Assembly: GCA_025558095.1 (NCBI GenBank) | Contig: JAIVFI010000007.1 | Span: 186,001-250,000 of the forward strand | From: Hyaloraphidium curvatum | Lineage: Eukaryota; Monoblepharomycota; Hyaloraphidiomycetes; Hyaloraphidiales; Hyaloraphidiaceae | Direction: 5' to 3' | Length of the DNA stretch: 64,000 nt | In this document: positions 3,741-60,049 of the stretch, one piece after another | Layout: every line of letters starts with the position of its first letter | Position numbering within the stretch: position 1 is the first letter of the stretch | Notes under the pieces: generated by a model | What the model was told of the DNA's origin: nothing | The model's database searches: none | The model's input: only the letters and a program-made list of their open reading frames with translations | Made by a program: the position numbers and the translations under genes

Positions 3741-4066
3741 ACCTCCTTCGCAGCTCTCTTCATACTGTGGAGATGATCGTGGTGCTCTGCCGCCCCGCGA
3801 ATCGCGCTGTGCAGCGCACCAGAGCGGTGCACGCGCGCACCTTGAGCTTGCGGGGGACATGAGGCGACCATTGCCGATGCAGCACTTGCCGTCGAGGCAT
3901 TGTGCCACAGGCTGTGGACCGGCTCGTCTTCGGTTGGTCTCCGAACCGCATGAGGTTCAGGGACGCTCTCGTCGGAGCGCGGTCCCTTGACTTGGCTGCT
4001 GCGTCACACCCGTCCCTCATCCCTCAGTGATCCCCCAACGCCACTTCCCCCGGCCGCGCCCCCGCC

Positions 4067-5556
4067 ATGGCCGACACCGCAGACGGCGGCCCGCCGGTGG
4101 CGCCGCCGGCGTTTCCCTCCGAGAAGCGCGCCGCCGCGCCGCAAAAGTCCGACGCCGCCGCGCTCCCCGCCGCGGACCCCGCCGCCCTCCCCGTGCGCCC
4201 GCGCGCGGACGCCGTCGTCCCGCAGGGCGGCAGACTCAAGGCCGCCGGCTTGATCCTGACCACGACAACCCTGCCCACGCTGCTCGCCCTGCCCACGGCG
4301 ATGGCCGGCCTCGGCTGGGCCGCCGGCGTAGTCGTGCTCCTCGGCGCCGCGCTGGCCGCATTCTACTGCTTCTACTCCCTCGTGGCGCTCAACGATTACG
4401 GAGGCAGCCCGCACTACACGTACCCGGAGCTGACAGACGCCGTGCTCGGCAGGCGGTGGTACACCGGGAGCATGGTGCTCGCGCTGCAGTACGCGAGCCA
4501 GTGGGGCACCGGCGTCGCGAACCTGGTCATGGCAGGAGGATTGCTGCAGCATTTCTGGAAGGCAAACTGCGCGCCGGCGTCCTGCTCGGCGATGAACACC
4601 GCCTGGTGGACCGCCGTCTGCGGGGCGGCCATGGCCGTCCTCGGCCAGCTCCCCGACTTCTCCAACCGCAACTGGGCCATCATCACCTCGGGCTTCTTCA
4701 CCGTCTTCTACTCGACCGTCGCCATCGGCCTGTCGATCGCCAACAACCAGGCGGCCACGGCAAACTACAGCATGGAGGGCACAACCGTGCAAAACATGTT
4801 CACGGCCTTCAATGCCATCGGGATGGTCCTCTTCGTCTACGGTGGGCTTCAACACCTTCCTACGGTCCCATTTTGGGTGCTCACATCCGTTTCTGGCGTC
4901 TAGGGGATACGATGTACGCAGAGGAACAGTCGATGCTCACCCCCGTCGACGGCAGCACGGTCGGACCGATGCACGGCGGCATGAAGATCGCCTTCGGGAT
5001 CACCGTACCCCTCCTCGCCACCCTCGCCTGCGTCGGCTTTTGGGCCTACGGCACCGCCGTCACCCCCTTCCTCTTCAACGCCTCCATGAACCCCGCGTGG
5101 CTGGCCATCCTCGCGAGCGCGACCTGCGTGCTGCAGCTGCTCTTTGGCAACGCGGTGTTCGAGCAGCCCATCGTCGAGAAGATCGAGACCAAGATGGCCG
5201 CAAGGTGGCCCGCGCAGGGATGGATGCGCCACGCCGTCGATGATGCGGCCTACCCGAGCCGGTGGCTGATGTTCCTCGTGCGGACGGGGTACTGCCTCTC
5301 CGTCACCGTGGTCGCCGTCTTCTTCCCCTTCTTCTCCTCGCTGATGGGCCTGATCGGCGCCGCCGTGCTCACGCCGCTGACGTTCGTCTACCCGATGGCG
5401 ATGAAGATCCGCGCCGGGGGGCCGGGGGCGGGCAGGTGGGTGCGCGCGCTGGACACGGCGATCGTGGTGGTGTTTGGGCTGGCGGGGTGCGTGGCGGCGG
5501 TGGGCGCGGTGCAGGGGATCGTGGTGGGGCTGCAGAACCTGGACCTGAGCGCGTGA
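4067..5556 (+). CDS. Amino-acid/auxin permease (AAAP) family transporter
   Basis: Multispanning membrane transporter likely to carry amino acids, probably coupled to protons, as in the AAAP/SLC36-SLC38 families. Two exons (4067-4841, 4904-5556) give 475 residues; the 62-nt intron splits a Gly codon in FVYG-DTMYAEEQ, matching the conserved YG-x-H/E region of the family. After a roughly 60-residue Ala/Pro-rich cytosolic tail come about 11 hydrophobic segments, starting at GLILTTTTLPTLLALP with the helix-breaking LPTAMAGLGW motif typical of TM1. The start is the first ATG of the long frame. Substrate and membrane (plasma membrane or vacuole) cannot be told from sequence. The 3' end overlaps the antisense frame of an F-box remnant. 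Confidence 0.82.
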
Positions 5557-7095: not shown

Positions 7096-8010
7096 TTACA
7101 GACTGAGCCCAAGGCGGATCCGTTGGAGCTTGGGGGAAGCCGCAACAACCTTGTTGACCCAGTCAGCATTGAAGTCGACCCCATCGTTTCTGCGGAAGCC
7201 GAAGTAGACCGTCAACTCCCGGAGCGGAAGTACTACGTCACGCTCCAGAACAGGCAAAATCGTCCGTGACTCGATGAAGAGGGTCAGGACTCTCACGTTC
7301 CGCAAGTCGAAAAGCCTCCTGCTGCTGACGTCGTCTTCCGGGGGCTGATAGTGGAGCTCCACCGCTGCGGGTCCGTCTTTCCCTGTGCCGAATGCCTCGA
7401 CCGCAGAGAAATCAAAGGCGGCACTGAAGTTTGGTATCGGTATCCCAGGATGAGCGTTTTGAGGGGCCAAGGACGCTTTCGGATTTCGGCCACAGCCTCG
7501 GGTTCCACATGTGCCGCACGGATCTCCAGGCGCTCGAGCCGAGGTAACTGGGCCAGGAGATTCACTCTCCTGGCATCGAGATCGGAAACTAGTGCCCAGC
7601 ACGTGGCGTGCCGACACCTGGCGTAGAAGTGCGAGATCGAGCAACGCCAAGCCTCGTCCGCGTTCAAGTCCTCCGAAAAAGGCCAATGGTCAACAAGAAT
7701 CCTTTTGACGAAGTCGAGCTTGCCCAGCCGCAGTCCGTCCTCCATGAACTGATTGAGCCTCTCCGACGTTTCCTGCGCGTTCGGTACGTGCCGCGCCGCT
7801 GGTCCCGCCGATCCCGGCCCCGCCAGAACGAGATGAAGGTCGACCGTTTCAATCAGCAGTGGAAGCAGGAGCGAGTACGTGTCGTGAGACGCCTTGGCCA
7901 ATTGGTAGAGATCGCGCCGCACGAGGAATCGCTCCACGTGCAGCAGGATCTCGGGCAGCCAACGCGTTCCCGGCGCCGACGACGAAGCTTTCGGTGCGGC
8001 ACCGCTGTTG
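7096..8010 (-). pseudogene. F-box/LRR-like protein, frame broken (copy 3)
   Basis: The F-box (LPEILLHVERFL at about 7925-7958) is followed by LYQLAKASHDTYSLLLPLLIE, then leucine-rich-like segments (NLLAQLPRLERLEIRAAH; RELTVYFGFRR) to a stop at 7096. It is likely an SCF substrate adaptor by family. The amino-terminal half (about 7440-7960) and the carboxy-terminal half (7096-7440) are in different frames, with no GT-AG pair of suitable phase between them, which suggests a frameshift near 7440 or a sequencing error. No ATG is in frame just upstream of the F-box, as in copy 1. The 5' flank is nucleotide-similar to that of copy 1, showing tandem duplication. Confidence 0.5.
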
Positions 8011-8219
8011 CGATGACGAGCGAAGCACTCGAGACGCGTTCCGAAGCGGGGGAGGCCATTGTGCGCGTTCCGCAGAAGGATGGTTTCTTTTTTGTTCGCG
8101 GGGCTTCGCGACGAGGCAGCGAATCAATCCGCTCGTCCTGCGATTCGATCACTTCAAGGAGCAATCTCATTTCCACATTCTATGAGAAGAGGAAGGGATG
8201 ATACAAGCCCTCGACCGCA

Positions 8220-9600
8220 TCACTTGTTCACGTCCACGACCACGCGGCCGGCCACGTTCCCCCTCACGATCTCGTTCGCCACCCCCACCGCCTCCTCCAG
8301 CCCCACGACCTTGGTCATCTCGTGCAGCTTGTCCATCGGGAGGTCCTGCGCCAGGCGCGCCCAGACCTGCTGCCGGCGCGGCTGCGGGCACTGCACCGAG
8401 TCGATGCCTGGAAGGGGCCGGTCAGATCGTGGAAGGTTTCGGGCAGCGGCTCGAACCAACCGAGGAGGTTGACGCCGCGGAGAATGAAGGGGAAGACGCC
8501 GGCGTTCGGCATGCCGGGCGACGCAGCGAGACCGCAGGCTGCGACGGAGCCAACTGGAGGTGAACGGGACATTGAGGATGACGCGAGCGAATGCCCAAGC
8601 GCATGACACCCACGGTACTTCATCTGGCTCAGCACGTTCACCAATATCTGTCCGCCGACCGTGTCCACAGCGCCGGCCCATTTCTCGCTGTCGATGGGCT
8701 TGCCGGGCTTCTCGAGCTCCTTCCGGTCGATCACCCGCGAGGCTCCGAGCTTCTTCAAATAATCGCCCTGGCTCTCCACGCGGCCCGAAACGGCGACGAC
8801 TTTGTAGCCGAGCTTCGCCAGAATGGCCACAGCGACGGAACCGACGCCTCCAGCGGCTCCAGTGACGACAATCTCGCCGCTGTCGGGCTTGACCCCGTGT
8901 TCCTTGAAACGGCCCATTAGCGAGGGTAGGCTCTCGAGCAAGGGAGAATGCCAACCTGAAGGGCCATCACGCACTGCATCGCCGTGAACCCTGCCGTCCC
9001 GATGGCCACCGCGTCCTTCTCCGAGATGTTCTGCGGCAGCTTGACGAGCCACTCGGGCTTGACCCGCGCCATTTCCGCCAGCCCACCCCACGTGCTGCCC
9101 TCGCCGATCCCGTAGCCGGTGAGCACGACGCGGTCCCCGGGCGCCAGGCCGGAAGAAGCGGGGGCCTCGACGATGGTGCCGGCAATGTCGATGCCGGGCA
9201 CGTGGGGGAAGGTGCGGACGATGGGGGAGCGGCCCGTGATTGCCAGTCCATCCTGTGAAAGTGAAGAGGGAAGATGACGGTAGAAGGAGGAGGAGAGGAA
9301 GGAGAGGAAGGAGAGGAAGGAACAGCCGAAGTCAGAGAGGGCGAGAGAGCTTCGTTGGCAGGTACACGCTTTGTAGTTGATCGAGCTGAAGGCGACCTTG
9401 ACCAGCGCCGGGTTCTTCGGCAGCGCCGAGGCGTCGAGTCGCTTCACGGCGGCCGAGATCGTCTTGCCCTTGTCTGCCGACTCGAGGACGAGCGCGCGGA
9501 ACTCGCCCGACGCGGCCGCGGCGTTGGGCGCCGTCGGCGCCGCGGCGGACGGCGTCGCGCCGAACGCGGAGAGCAGCGCGGCGGTGCGGCGGAGGGCCAT
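8220..9600 (-). CDS. AcuI/YhdH-type zinc-independent quinone/acryloyl-CoA reductase, MDR family
   Basis: Medium-chain NADPH-dependent oxidoreductase of the AcuI/YhdH branch, which reduces acryloyl-CoA or quinone-like substrates. Exons 9370-9600, 8956-9252, 8614-8902, 8461-8553 and 8220-8407 sum to 1,098 nt, giving 365 residues. Evidence: PHVPGIDIAGTI, GWGGLAE-like loop, IGTAGFTAMQCV, the nucleotide fold VTGAAGGVGSVAVA, LGASRVIDR, KWAGAVDTVGG, VAACGLA and PFILRGVNLLGIDSVQ. The first 30 residues (Arg- and Ala-rich) could be a mitochondrial presequence; another ATG nine bases upstream is possible. Intron 1 (9253-9369) carries a GGAGGAG/GGAAG purine array on the plus strand, and homology (NYK-DGLA) forces a GC donor, making it a candidate GC-AG intron. 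Confidence 0.85.
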
Positions 9601-18400: not shown

Positions 18401-21400
18401 ACCCGAATCGGAGTCGTAGGAGTCGTCACCCTCGGAGCCGTCGGAGCCGTCGCCGTCCGAGTCTTCGTCATCCGGGTATCCGTCGAGGTCGAGGTCATCG
18501 TCCGAAGACCCCACCTCCTTGTCGGGCACGAAGCACTTGCGGAAGAACCAGATGAGCAGGCGGATGATCGACTCCTTGGGCGACGACACAAGGCCTTCCA
18601 AATCAGGTTCCTCGGCCAGCCTCTTGGCGGTGTTGGCTTCGCCGGTGTTCTGCAGTCCGATCACGACGGCCTTGCCGTCCTCGAGTGCTTTCTTGGAGAT
18701 CTCGATCACGGCGGGAACCTAGAGGCAAGGCCGTGAGCACTCCGTACGCAATGCGCTGGCTTTACCGGGGTTACGCGCCTTCGACGATATGACCAAATAT
18801 CGGAAGAACCGCTGACGGATTCGGTTAGTGCAGCCACTGGTGCGGCGAAACTGGCGCACACCTGATGGGAGCCCCAGAAAAGGCGAGTCATGACGCTGAG
18901 CGCCTTGCCGTCCAAACCAGTGGTGTTGGCCGATGCCCACTTGAAAAGCACGTCCTTTAGATCGAGCCAAAGGTCCACGGAGGCGTCGTAGTCGAGGACC
19001 GAGGGGTCGTGCGGGATGTTGATCACCTCGAACGAGGCCGTGGCGTAGGAAAGCGTCCGGGCCAAATAGCTGCCAGTGGACTTCAAGTCCAACGCTTTTG
19101 CAATGGCAATGGTTATGGTTGGTGAAGAGCTGCGGGTTCACGCTCGCGGCCTCGCTCACCTAAGCATTCCTGTTGATGTGACAATCAGCGATGCAACCGT
19201 GAGCTTTGCGGAAGCACCAACCATGGCACCCGACCCCCTCTTTTCCACGTTCTCGTAGAATTCCTTGAATCCGGTCGGAAAGCTGGTGCCAGGTCCCCAG
19301 AGGCCAAGTCGTGACCCGGGGAAAGAGGTGTCCGTTAGCAAAGTCGGCAACAAGACCCTCGCAGCTCAGGCAGCTCACATGTAAGCCAGGTTCCTCGTTT
19401 CGGAGACCCCAGTGGCGGAGACGTAAACGACGCGGGCCTTCTTGAGCCGCTCCTGCGTTACCGAGATGCAAACGTCAGCAACGTTTCCGACCCGCCCCGG
19501 AAGCCGCACTTGAATAGCCGCGATGACGATCCCGGTCTGCGTAGCACCGGTCTTGGTGTTCTTCTTCGCCGCTTGTCCTTTGCCCCGTCCGGCTTCGTCG
19601 ATGAGCTGCTGCACGACGTCGACGCCCTCGGGCAGATCGACTCCCTCGTCGTCCTTGGACACGGCAGCGTGCTTCTTCCCGGGCGGGACGAGGTTCTTGG
19701 CCTTGTGCCTGTTTCGAAGGCGTCAAATCATGCAAGCGCCAAGAAGCCCGCCGACACTCACGATTCGTCGAAGATGAGGAGCCCATCAAAGTCCTCCCCG
19801 CCCAGCCACTCGATGACCTGTTCCAGCCGAGAATCCATCATCTTGCCCTTGCCCTTCTTGCTCTGCGTGCGAGCCTGGCGCTTGGCGATCAGCGAGGAGT
19901 AGGTCGAGAAGAGGACGCCATTCCAGTTTCCAAGGCGCTGCACGTCGCGAGCCATTGCGGAGCAGACAGACAGTCAGCGTTGGAGGTGATGAGCGGAGCG
20001 CCCAATAAGACGAACCTCGTATGACAGCTTGGCGATGTTGGTCACCGAAATGTGGTTCGCTGCCGAGCACAGGTTAAGCATCGATTGCGTCGAATGCAGC
20101 GCATGTGAAGCACTGCCCACCTCCAATATCAGAAAGGTCACGTCTTGCGTCTTGATACAAGTCAGCCGAAACACTGACCCAAAGAGCGCGTTTCCTGCCG
20201 TGCAGATGGTTTTCGTAGATGATTCCTGAATGCCAGCGAGGATGAGAAGACCACGCGATCGGAAAGGCTTCAGCGAAACCGACCGGCAATCGTCCGTCCT
20301 TTGCCGACACCTGTGCCAGCACGGGACTGATTATCAGGACACGGCTGGAGATGCTCTCGCGAGGGCGCACCTGCTCCGTCGCCCACAGCGAAGCCTGCAC
20401 GCGACTTGTTATCGGGACACATCTGGAGATGTTTTTGCGAGGCGTAGACAACACTGAGTGGAAGAACAAAGAAGGTCAGACGATACATCTAGGCCAAAGC
20501 ACTGAACAAGCAGCGGCGGACCAACCTCTCGAGCTGGATCTTCGACAGAGCACCCGTTTCTACGAGCTTGGCACGAACTTTTTCGTCGGAGTAAAGCTTC
20601 GGCACGTATGTGATCGGCGGGGGAGGGCAAGAAGCGAGCGAGGCCGCTTCGACCTGATGTTGCACGAGTTAGCGCAGAAAGCTCGAAGCCTCAGCACTCC
20701 CACCAAAGGGTCCGGATGGTCCAGGCCGTACGGAAGGCTGGACTGATAAACGGCGTAGCGCTGGCAAAGAACCATTAGATAATGGACAGGGCTTCCAATC
20801 GCGTGGCCTCGCACCTGGAGGTCTTCGAGCTCATCTTCAACGTCGATCTCCTCCTCGTCGACGTGCTCGTCCGACCCGGCAGCGGCAGCGCCTTTGGCGG
20901 CTGTAGATGCAGTCTTTGGCGCTTGAGCCTGCGCGGCGGCTGCGGTGGCGCCTGCGTTGGTGGATGGTGTCGCGGTCGGCATCAAAGGAGTGCCGTGACG
21001 GGCTTGACCGGGGGCTGGGACGCTGCCTTGACGCGACTTGGGCCTGGACGCCATGTCCTTGAGGCTGAAGTCCTTGTTCGCCCAGAGATCCGCGATTGAT
21101 GCTTGCGCCTTGGGTCGGTTGCTGTTCTTGAGCCGGTTCTGCGCAACACCCCCGGCGGACAGGGCATGCGGTAGATTGGCGGCTTGGGTCGCAGGGCGCT
21201 GCGCTGCCTGGGGAGCGGGCACCGTTGCCGCCTGCGCAGGGGGCGGGAGGAACGTCGCCGCCGGGACTGGCATCGGTGAGGCGTTGACGGCCCCCGGGAA
21301 CGCTGCTGCCGCTTCGTCCGCCGCCTTCTTGGCGTGATACGACTCGAGCATGATCCGAATCTCGGCTGGGGACATGTCGGCGAGCAGGGCGGCGACGTCG

Positions 21401-58212: not shown

Positions 58213-60049
58213 TCATCCACAAGAGATAGCTGCTGCGAAGCCGGCGCCCCAGGTCGGGTCTGCCAAGTCAGTGCGATCGAGCGTCCGCGATTCCCTGGCG
58301 AAGAACTCCACATCCTGGCGCAGAAGACGCCGGCGGATGTACATCGAGACGTGGATGGGAAGATACGTCGAGTTCCCCAGGCTTGACGTGATGCCGGTGT
58401 CAGAATCAAGGAGATGGCCAAGCTTGCCCATGGGCTCCCAGCCCCATAGGCCCAGATCTCTGACCAGCGAAGCGAACCCACTCTGCACAGCAGGGATGTG
58501 GTTGGGAAGATACGTCGAGTTCCCCAGGCTTGACGTGATGCCGGTGTCAGAATCAAGGAGATGGCCAAGCTTGCCCATGGGCTCCCAGCCCCATAGGCCC
58601 AGATCTCTGACCAGCGAAGCGAACCCACTCTGCACAGCAGGGATGTGGTTTCCTTGCGTATGTGCACTCGAACTTTGACGTCGGTCTTCGTCAGGTCTCC
58701 GCTTGTAGATAGCCCGATGAGCACGCCGAGATTTCGGTTATTAAAATCGAACCTCGCCTTCAGGACGAAGGCGTCCTGGTCAATGGAAAATGGAACATCC
58801 CTTCGGATGAGGCCGGAAGAGTTGGTCGGTACAGGAACATGAACGATCGTTGTCCAGGGGGGCAAAGTGCTCTTGAGCGCGGAGACTTCGTTCTGCGACT
58901 GCGTCGCCATCCAGACATGACCACCGAGGAGGAAGACCGCGAGCAGCAGGACCACGATGCACGCCAGGGCAGCGGTGGCGGCCGTCTCGAAGGACAGTTT
59001 GCTGACGACGACCATAACTGTCTGCCAGATGCGGGTGACGGTCGAGGCCTGCAAGGCAGCCAGAGCCGCCTGACCCTTTGCGAGCTCTTCGTCCTTGGCC
59101 TTGATCGCCGCTTGTAGCTCCCCTATCTTCTGGTCGAAAGAAGCCTTCGGCACCGTCGAGGCTCGGAGGGCCGCGAGCTCGGCCTGCAGGCTCGAGACCA
59201 CGAGAGACTGGCTTCGTTGGCCGCGTCGGTATCCTGCTGCAGCTTGGCGTACGCGGCTTCCGCCTGCTTCAGGTGCTCCTGCGCCGCATCACGCTCGTGC
59301 GTCTCGAGGGTGTCGAAAGCGCCCTGAACAAAGAGGAGTCAGGGCCGGCAAAGACGGGAACGGTGCCAAACGAACCTGGTAGCCGCAGTTGGGGAAGTGG
59401 GGACATTTGACGATCCGACGCGGGCACGCAGCCAGGTGGCCAGTCAGCTGCTCGCGGAGCACGGTCTCCGAGCAGCCTTGGTTCGTGCACGGGACCGGCG
59501 CCTTGGGGCAGGACTCTTGGTGCTGCGTCATGTTGCCTCGTCGAATGTCCAGGCCGCAGCCAGCGAAGGCGCATTTGACTGGAAAGCTGGAGCACGTACC
59601 GTAGTGGGCCTAGAGGGGGCAACGAATGAGGCTGACGCAAGCTGGAGCGATGCCTCGGCGCCATACCAGAAGAGAGTCGGGAGGCGACACCGTGCTGCCG
59701 CAGAACGAGCAGTGCCGCGGGCACATCCTCAGGTGGGCGTCGATGTCACACATCTGCACCGACGCTCCGCACCCATCCGGGCAGGCAACCGCGGCATTGT
59801 TGTATAGAAGCTTGAGGGTTTCCTGCGGGCTCGCGAGAAGTGGGACTAAGAACGCCCACGGCTTGCGGCAGTTCGGGCAGGTCTTTCCACTGGGTCCGTT
59901 CTCGCTCAAGGCATGCCTTACAAAAGACGTGGCCGCAGGCCTGGCGATAGCCCTCCTGGTCGTGGCACAAAAAGCACGGGAGTCGCAGACGGCAAAACCG
60001 GTCCGAGACAGACGGTACACGTGAGCCAGGCCGGGTCCGCCATGGCCAT
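58213..60049 (-). CDS. RING/TRAF-type zinc-finger protein with membrane helix and repeated tail
   Basis: Starts MAMADPAWLTCTVCL at 60049 (or 60043); a 48-nt intron joins CTVCLGP to EGYRQACGHVFCKACLE, giving a RING finger, which suggests E3 ubiquitin-ligase activity. The last RING cysteines (KTCPNCRKPW) lie one frame away with no matching intron, so a one-base indel near 59900 or an unseen splice is likely. TRAF-type zinc fingers follow (CPDGCGASVQMCDIDAHLRMC; HQESCPKAPVPCTNQGC; HLAACPRRIVKCP), then a coiled coil (QAELAALRAS; ELAKGQAALAALQ) and one membrane helix (ALACIVVLLLAVFLLGG) near 58.9 kb. The distal part (FVLKARFDFNNRNLGVLIGLS) hints at a MATH-like fold, and the tail contains a duplicated 49-residue block. 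The frame of the tail differs from that of the membrane part. Confidence 0.6.
58356..58649. repeat. Perfect 147-bp tandem duplication
   Basis: Two back-to-back copies, about 58356-58502 and 58503-58649, appear identical base for base. The unit length is a multiple of three, so it inserts 49 residues (LGLWGWEPMGKLGHLLDSDT within each copy) without shifting the frame. No target-site signature of a mobile element is seen. Confidence 0.93.

Follow-up and report, generated by a model that had tools for sequence, protein, structure and literature searches.

Intron gain by local duplication of exon sequence is already known, and one review has compiled 188 cases in which tandem duplication gave rise to an intron (PMC3443670). 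Introns ascribed to tandem duplication include those of vertebrate ATP2A1 and of the fission yeast genes SPOG_01682/SOCG_00815, in which, as the cases are cited in PMC4974935 and PMC3443670, the intron consists of adjacent exon sequence, its AGGT ends are reused as donor and acceptor, and the protein is left unchanged. A new intron of the potato RdRp gene also stems from a local tandem duplication, which spans the junction of a pre-existing intron with its exon and takes over the splice signals present there (PMC4974935). In Daphnia, introns lying within 10 bases of each other, not at the same site, are counted as parallel gains; these make up 48% of the new introns and are AT-rich (PMC4202315). 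Near intron pairs of Drosophila have been explained by novel positions arising through sliding or tandem duplication (PMC2891723), and in basidiomycete amylase genes an intron is inferred to have moved by one base (PMC3584928).

The 60-nt intron predicted here, in a strawberry-notch gene of Hyaloraphidium curvatum, appears to be a new and fairly clear case of the same general process. As far as ATP2A1 and the fission yeast genes are described in the citing papers, it agrees with them in being composed of adjacent exon sequence, in the reuse of AGGT ends as donor and acceptor and in the (predicted) preservation of the protein. It differs from them in being shorter than the repeat period (60 against 78 nt), in having a paralogous intron that is one base off, and in that the comparison is confined to paralogues and bacterial homologues. 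The potato intron is comparable in its origin from a local tandem duplication, whereas the source of the window intron is purely exonic. Resemblances to the Daphnia gains are the short direct repeat (CAGGTG) flanking the insert, the proposed parallel gains near the same site and the AT-rich intron of a paralogue; in contrast to Daphnia, where the sources are mostly unknown, the insert appears to come from the exon immediately upstream. As in the Drosophila pairs, homologous genes carry introns a few nucleotides apart, and exon duplication is one proposed cause. However, no relevant exon similarity was found for the Drosophila introns (PMC2891723), whereas the window intron is 80% identical to its exon over 50 nt, and the 1-nt spacing seen here does not permit stepwise in-frame sliding.

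A predicted intron in the Walker A codons of a strawberry-notch gene

The window, i.e. the whole stretch of 64,000 nucleotides that was analysed, has a GC content of 63% and belongs to contig C7; the genome, that of a eukaryote, comprises 31.9 Mb in 55 contigs. The gene in question lies on its minus strand, and its predicted spliced product matches the Pfam AAA_34 domain (strawberry-notch NTP hydrolase domain; 4e-80). A genome search recovered two more genes of the family, on contigs C3 and C4, and no close relative was found in viral contigs or in the PDB. The C4 gene (in region L011, C4:696200-700200) is the more diverged and lacks an intron at this Walker A position. The window gene and its C3 paralogue are separated by a dS of 1.44 and a dN of 0.25, with 70% amino-acid identity. 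Over 290 aligned codons they carry 8 and 3 introns respectively: two are exactly common (PDPL/V and DES/H; the slash marks the intron), five are confined to the window gene, and the pair in the Walker A motif is one base out of register. The YM/.../GLWGPG region of the window gene, for which the gene model has no GT-AG intron, was left out of this comparison; an intron is expected there from C3 (minus strand, below 19500) and no GT-AG solution was found, which may reflect an unusual acceptor or a sequence error. The C3 gene also contains an apparent GC-AG intron of 53 nt between LDMKSM and GSYLSRTL (region L010), and an intron of the window gene seemingly lies about 10 codons upstream of it, making another near intron pair.

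The features of the locus are as follows:

20311-20370, minus strand: predicted spliceosomal intron, GT..AG, phase 1, 60 nt; the only GT-AG choice that yields the 16-letter protein stretch
20284-20310, minus strand: short downstream exon coding VGKGRTIA, the second half of the Walker A motif
20315-20364, minus strand: exon-like copy within the intron, 40 of 50 positions identical to 20393-20442, scoring above all 20,000 shuffles
20393-20442, minus strand: probable source segment in the upstream exon, coding 16 residues
20375-20392, minus strand: 18 exon nucleotides (TTCGCTGTGGGCGACGGA, encoding FAVGDG) that separate the source segment from the splice site and lack an intron counterpart
20368-20373, minus strand: upstream CAGGTG, formed by exon end CAG and intron start GTG (predicted donor)
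20308-20313, minus strand: downstream CAGGTG, formed by intron end CAG and exon start GTG (predicted acceptor)
20314-20367, minus strand: 54-nt candidate insert flanked by the two CAGGTG repeats; 50 or more of its nucleotides align to the exon

Reading from 20370 to 20311, the intron begins with GTGCGC, ends with GCACAG and splits a Gly codon of the Walker A motif (GDGA-G/V-GKGR). Its GTGCG start recurs in three other introns of the window gene and C3, its acceptor is CAG, and the A of its CTGAT branch motif is 23 nt away from the 3' end; 13 of the 14 introns of these two genes contain a YTRAY motif. Splicing out the 60 nt restores GDGAGVGKGR, and the predicted protein then aligns to C3 over the intron site with no gap. 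In bacterial plasmid homologues the motif is uninterrupted (GDGTG[VAC]GKGR), as it is in C4, and an intron is absent from this codon in both; in C3 an intron of unrelated sequence stands 1 nt away. Since the motif would otherwise be broken, we take the 60-nt segment to be spliced. The preliminary description had placed a 60-nt intron at 20311-20370, interrupting GDGAG/VGKGR, and had held the protein to be unchanged by it; both statements hold for the predicted splicing, with the strand, the phase and a match to the signals of the gene's other introns now added. The segment might instead be retained and encode a 20-residue repeat: its length is a multiple of three, its frame is open with no in-frame stop, and diverged in-frame repeats are common in the coding sequence of this genome. 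Retention would, however, add 20 residues to a Walker A loop that is contiguous in C4, in the bacterial homologues and, after splicing, in C3, and it would leave the match of donor, branch site and acceptor to other introns of the gene unexplained; we regard it as improbable.

The exon-like copy and the manner of copying

The intron matches the upstream exon without gaps at 40 of 50 positions, at an offset of 78. The local score of this alignment is 50, as against a mean of 14.0 (SD 2.3) and a maximum of 35 in 20,000 dinucleotide shuffles of the intron, and the repeat ranks third among all ungapped direct repeats with offsets of 20-200 in the whole window. When the 14 introns of the window gene and C3 were compared with their flanking exons, only the 60-nt intron gave a clear resemblance (z 16.7), the other 13 remaining at or below z 4. 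The copy spans the intron nearly from donor to acceptor, with no unrelated body left over. The near-copy at offset 78 had thus been rightly recognized earlier and survives the comparison with shuffled controls proposed at the time, although the spans then paired (20322-20367 with 20399-20444) are one base out of register, at offset 77. Of the further statement that both copies end in AG-GTG, the letters CAG/GTG are correct, but the intron copy lacks the 18 nucleotides (TTCGCTGTGGGCGACGGA) that precede this site in the exon. Chance similarity, for which only the short length speaks, can practically be dismissed in view of the z-score and of 20,000 shuffles none of which came near the observed value. 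Introners are known in many eukaryotes, as reported in PMC9860276, and an introner or an intron transposed from elsewhere in the genome would be another conceivable source. In a whole-genome search, however, the 60-nt intron gave a single match and no other copy at E <= 10, and the C3 intron described below likewise had no match elsewhere at that threshold; the absence of another genomic copy, together with a source visible next door, makes this origin very improbable for the window intron. These sequence comparisons lend good support to a local duplication of the upstream exon as the origin of the intron's sequence.

The manner of copying is less straightforward. If tandem duplication had acted alone, intron length and repeat period should be equal. 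Here the intron measures 60 nt and the period 78, because the 18 nt before the acceptor lack a counterpart, and the textbook tandem duplication of Rogers therefore needs an extra deletion of 18 nt. The proposal of an internal tandem duplication thus holds for the exon origin and for the AGGT at both the donor and the acceptor junction, but not for the expected length, and it leaves the birth of an intron at this place unproven. An exon-templated insertion of 54 nt between CAGGTG repeats, in the course of break repair, fits in one step: a 6-nt direct repeat stands on both sides of the insert, at least 50 of its 54 nt have an exon template, and the copy starts near the left CAGGTG and stops one base short of the right one. 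By virtue of this fit to the boundaries, templated insertion is slightly easier than tandem duplication plus deletion. The flanking repeat alone is weak evidence, since CAGGTG is close to the splice consensus.

We searched for further cases among loose candidate introns called without annotation in the window, in a sample of 20 stretches of 10 kb, of which 197.5 kb could be read, and in the two paralogue regions; with candidates of this kind the survey is not exhaustive. No second exon-derived intron was found in this material. The higher-scoring candidates were rejected as a tandem repeat, simple repeats and a read-through coding repeat in region L026. All other diverged local repeats in the 20 stretches have periods divisible by three and the look of coding repeats. 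At 58348-58650 the window holds a two-copy tandem duplication of a 147-nt unit, 99% identical, open in frame and without AGGT in the unit, which is young. Regions L020 (near 3826-4541) and L028 (near 7898-8714) share the same repeats in opposite orientation, which suggests a dispersed repeat element.

Direction and age of the copying, and the intron of the C3 paralogue

With the C3 exon as reference, six of the 10 differences between the two copies can be polarised and four are ambiguous. Five of the six changed in the intron copy, and the remaining one, which is silent, in the exon; copying most likely ran from exon to intron. The corrected distance between the copies is 0.24 substitutions per site, from which, allowing for constraint on the exon, we derive a rough figure of about 0.15 changes per site in each lineage after the copying event, based on 10 differences. 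The paralogues have diverged by about 0.7 per lineage (half of the dS), which places the copying after their split; it would lie about a fifth to a quarter as far back as the split itself. Two of the differences fall on potential splicing signals. Exon CCCGATAAC corresponds to intron CCTGATAAT, a CCGAT to CTGAT difference that yields a branch motif of a type present in other introns of these genes; here C3 carries yet another base, which leaves the polarity ambiguous. Exon GTGCAGGC corresponds to intron GTGCTGGC, where GCAG has become GCTG, with loss of an AG that would compete as acceptor; by the C3 reference, this change took place in the intron copy.

The C3 paralogue has an intron of 63 nt in the same codon (C3:848613-848675, minus strand, in L010, C3:846500-850500), reading GCAGG/GTTAGT...CTTAAAG/GGTCGG. 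It is in phase 2, one base further on than the window intron, and its predicted removal also leaves the Walker A motif contiguous. Its GC content is 33%, against 49-63% in the other introns of the two genes; none of the 260,198 windows of 63 nt in 262 kb of sampled genome is as AT-rich, and the lowest GC among 164 candidate introns is 45%. No sequence shared by the C3 and window introns was found. With a mitochondrial source of the C3 intron in mind, the assembly was searched for COX1, and no match was found. We rejected the idea that the C3 intron descends in decayed form from the same duplication, as it has no likeness to its own exon or to the window intron. As it differs from the window intron in position (by 1 nt), content and composition, it looks separately acquired. 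The preliminary description had considered that a relative with the same intron, lacking exon-like content, would speak against it; C3 goes halfway towards such a case, with an intron of unrelated content that is 1 nt off.

Birth or makeover of an intron, and its implications

The main competitor to a new intron is that an old intron at this codon predates the split of the paralogues, that local duplication later added exon sequence to it, that deletions removed its old body, and that its boundaries slid one base from those of C3: a makeover and not a birth. Common descent is plausible inasmuch as the C3 intron is only 1 nt away and the PDPL/V and DES/H introns are exactly common to both paralogues, so that some introns are ancestral; moreover, the donor could be inherited, since other introns of these genes also start with GTGCG. 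Both parallel gain and a one-base shift have precedents, the former in Daphnia (PMC4202315) and the latter in basidiomycete amylase (PMC3584928). Nevertheless, the window gene shows no trace of an older intron's body beyond the splice-site letters, the C3 intron has no sequence in common with the window intron and is a compositional outlier, and a one-base shift requires compensating changes at both ends; such a shift combined with replacement of the content is unlikely. The chance that an independent gain falls within one base is about 2% (6 sites x 3 / 870 nt), and more if gains prefer AG/G sites. We consider the makeover a serious but rather unlikely explanation. Given the odd composition of the C3 intron and the missing old body in the window gene, independent gains are favoured over common descent. 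We tentatively propose, and rate at slightly below even, that each paralogue acquired its own intron at a shared proto-splice site, the two lying one base apart, one by a local exon copy and the other from AT-rich DNA of other origin.

The explanation that we prefer, and consider probable, is that the exon was copied into the CAGGTG site after the paralogue split, that an intron was born there, and that splice-improving changes followed. At that time the Walker A codon would have contained no intron. About 54 nt of the exon would have been copied a few tens of bases downstream into a CAGGTG proto-splice site within the Walker A codons, leaving CAGGTG on either side. This may have happened in one step, with the exon serving as template for an insertion while a staggered break was repaired, or through tandem duplication of about 78 nt together with a loss of 18 nt; the former appears slightly easier. 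The first CAGGTG would then have become the donor and the second the acceptor (each CAG/GTG), so that the insert would be removed by splicing and the protein remain unchanged. Small later changes may have improved splicing, CTGAT supplying a branch site and GCTG removing a premature acceptor.

The sources of new introns are seldom identifiable, and here the source is visible. The age of the change can be set against that of a gene duplication, and the sequence shows candidate steps by which exon sequence became spliceable, namely the gain of a branch site and the loss of a premature acceptor. The sister intron one base away bears on whether introns at matching positions are always inherited or may be gained in parallel; if the gains were indeed independent, the Walker A site would be a hot spot at which introns have been gained in parallel in a single genome.
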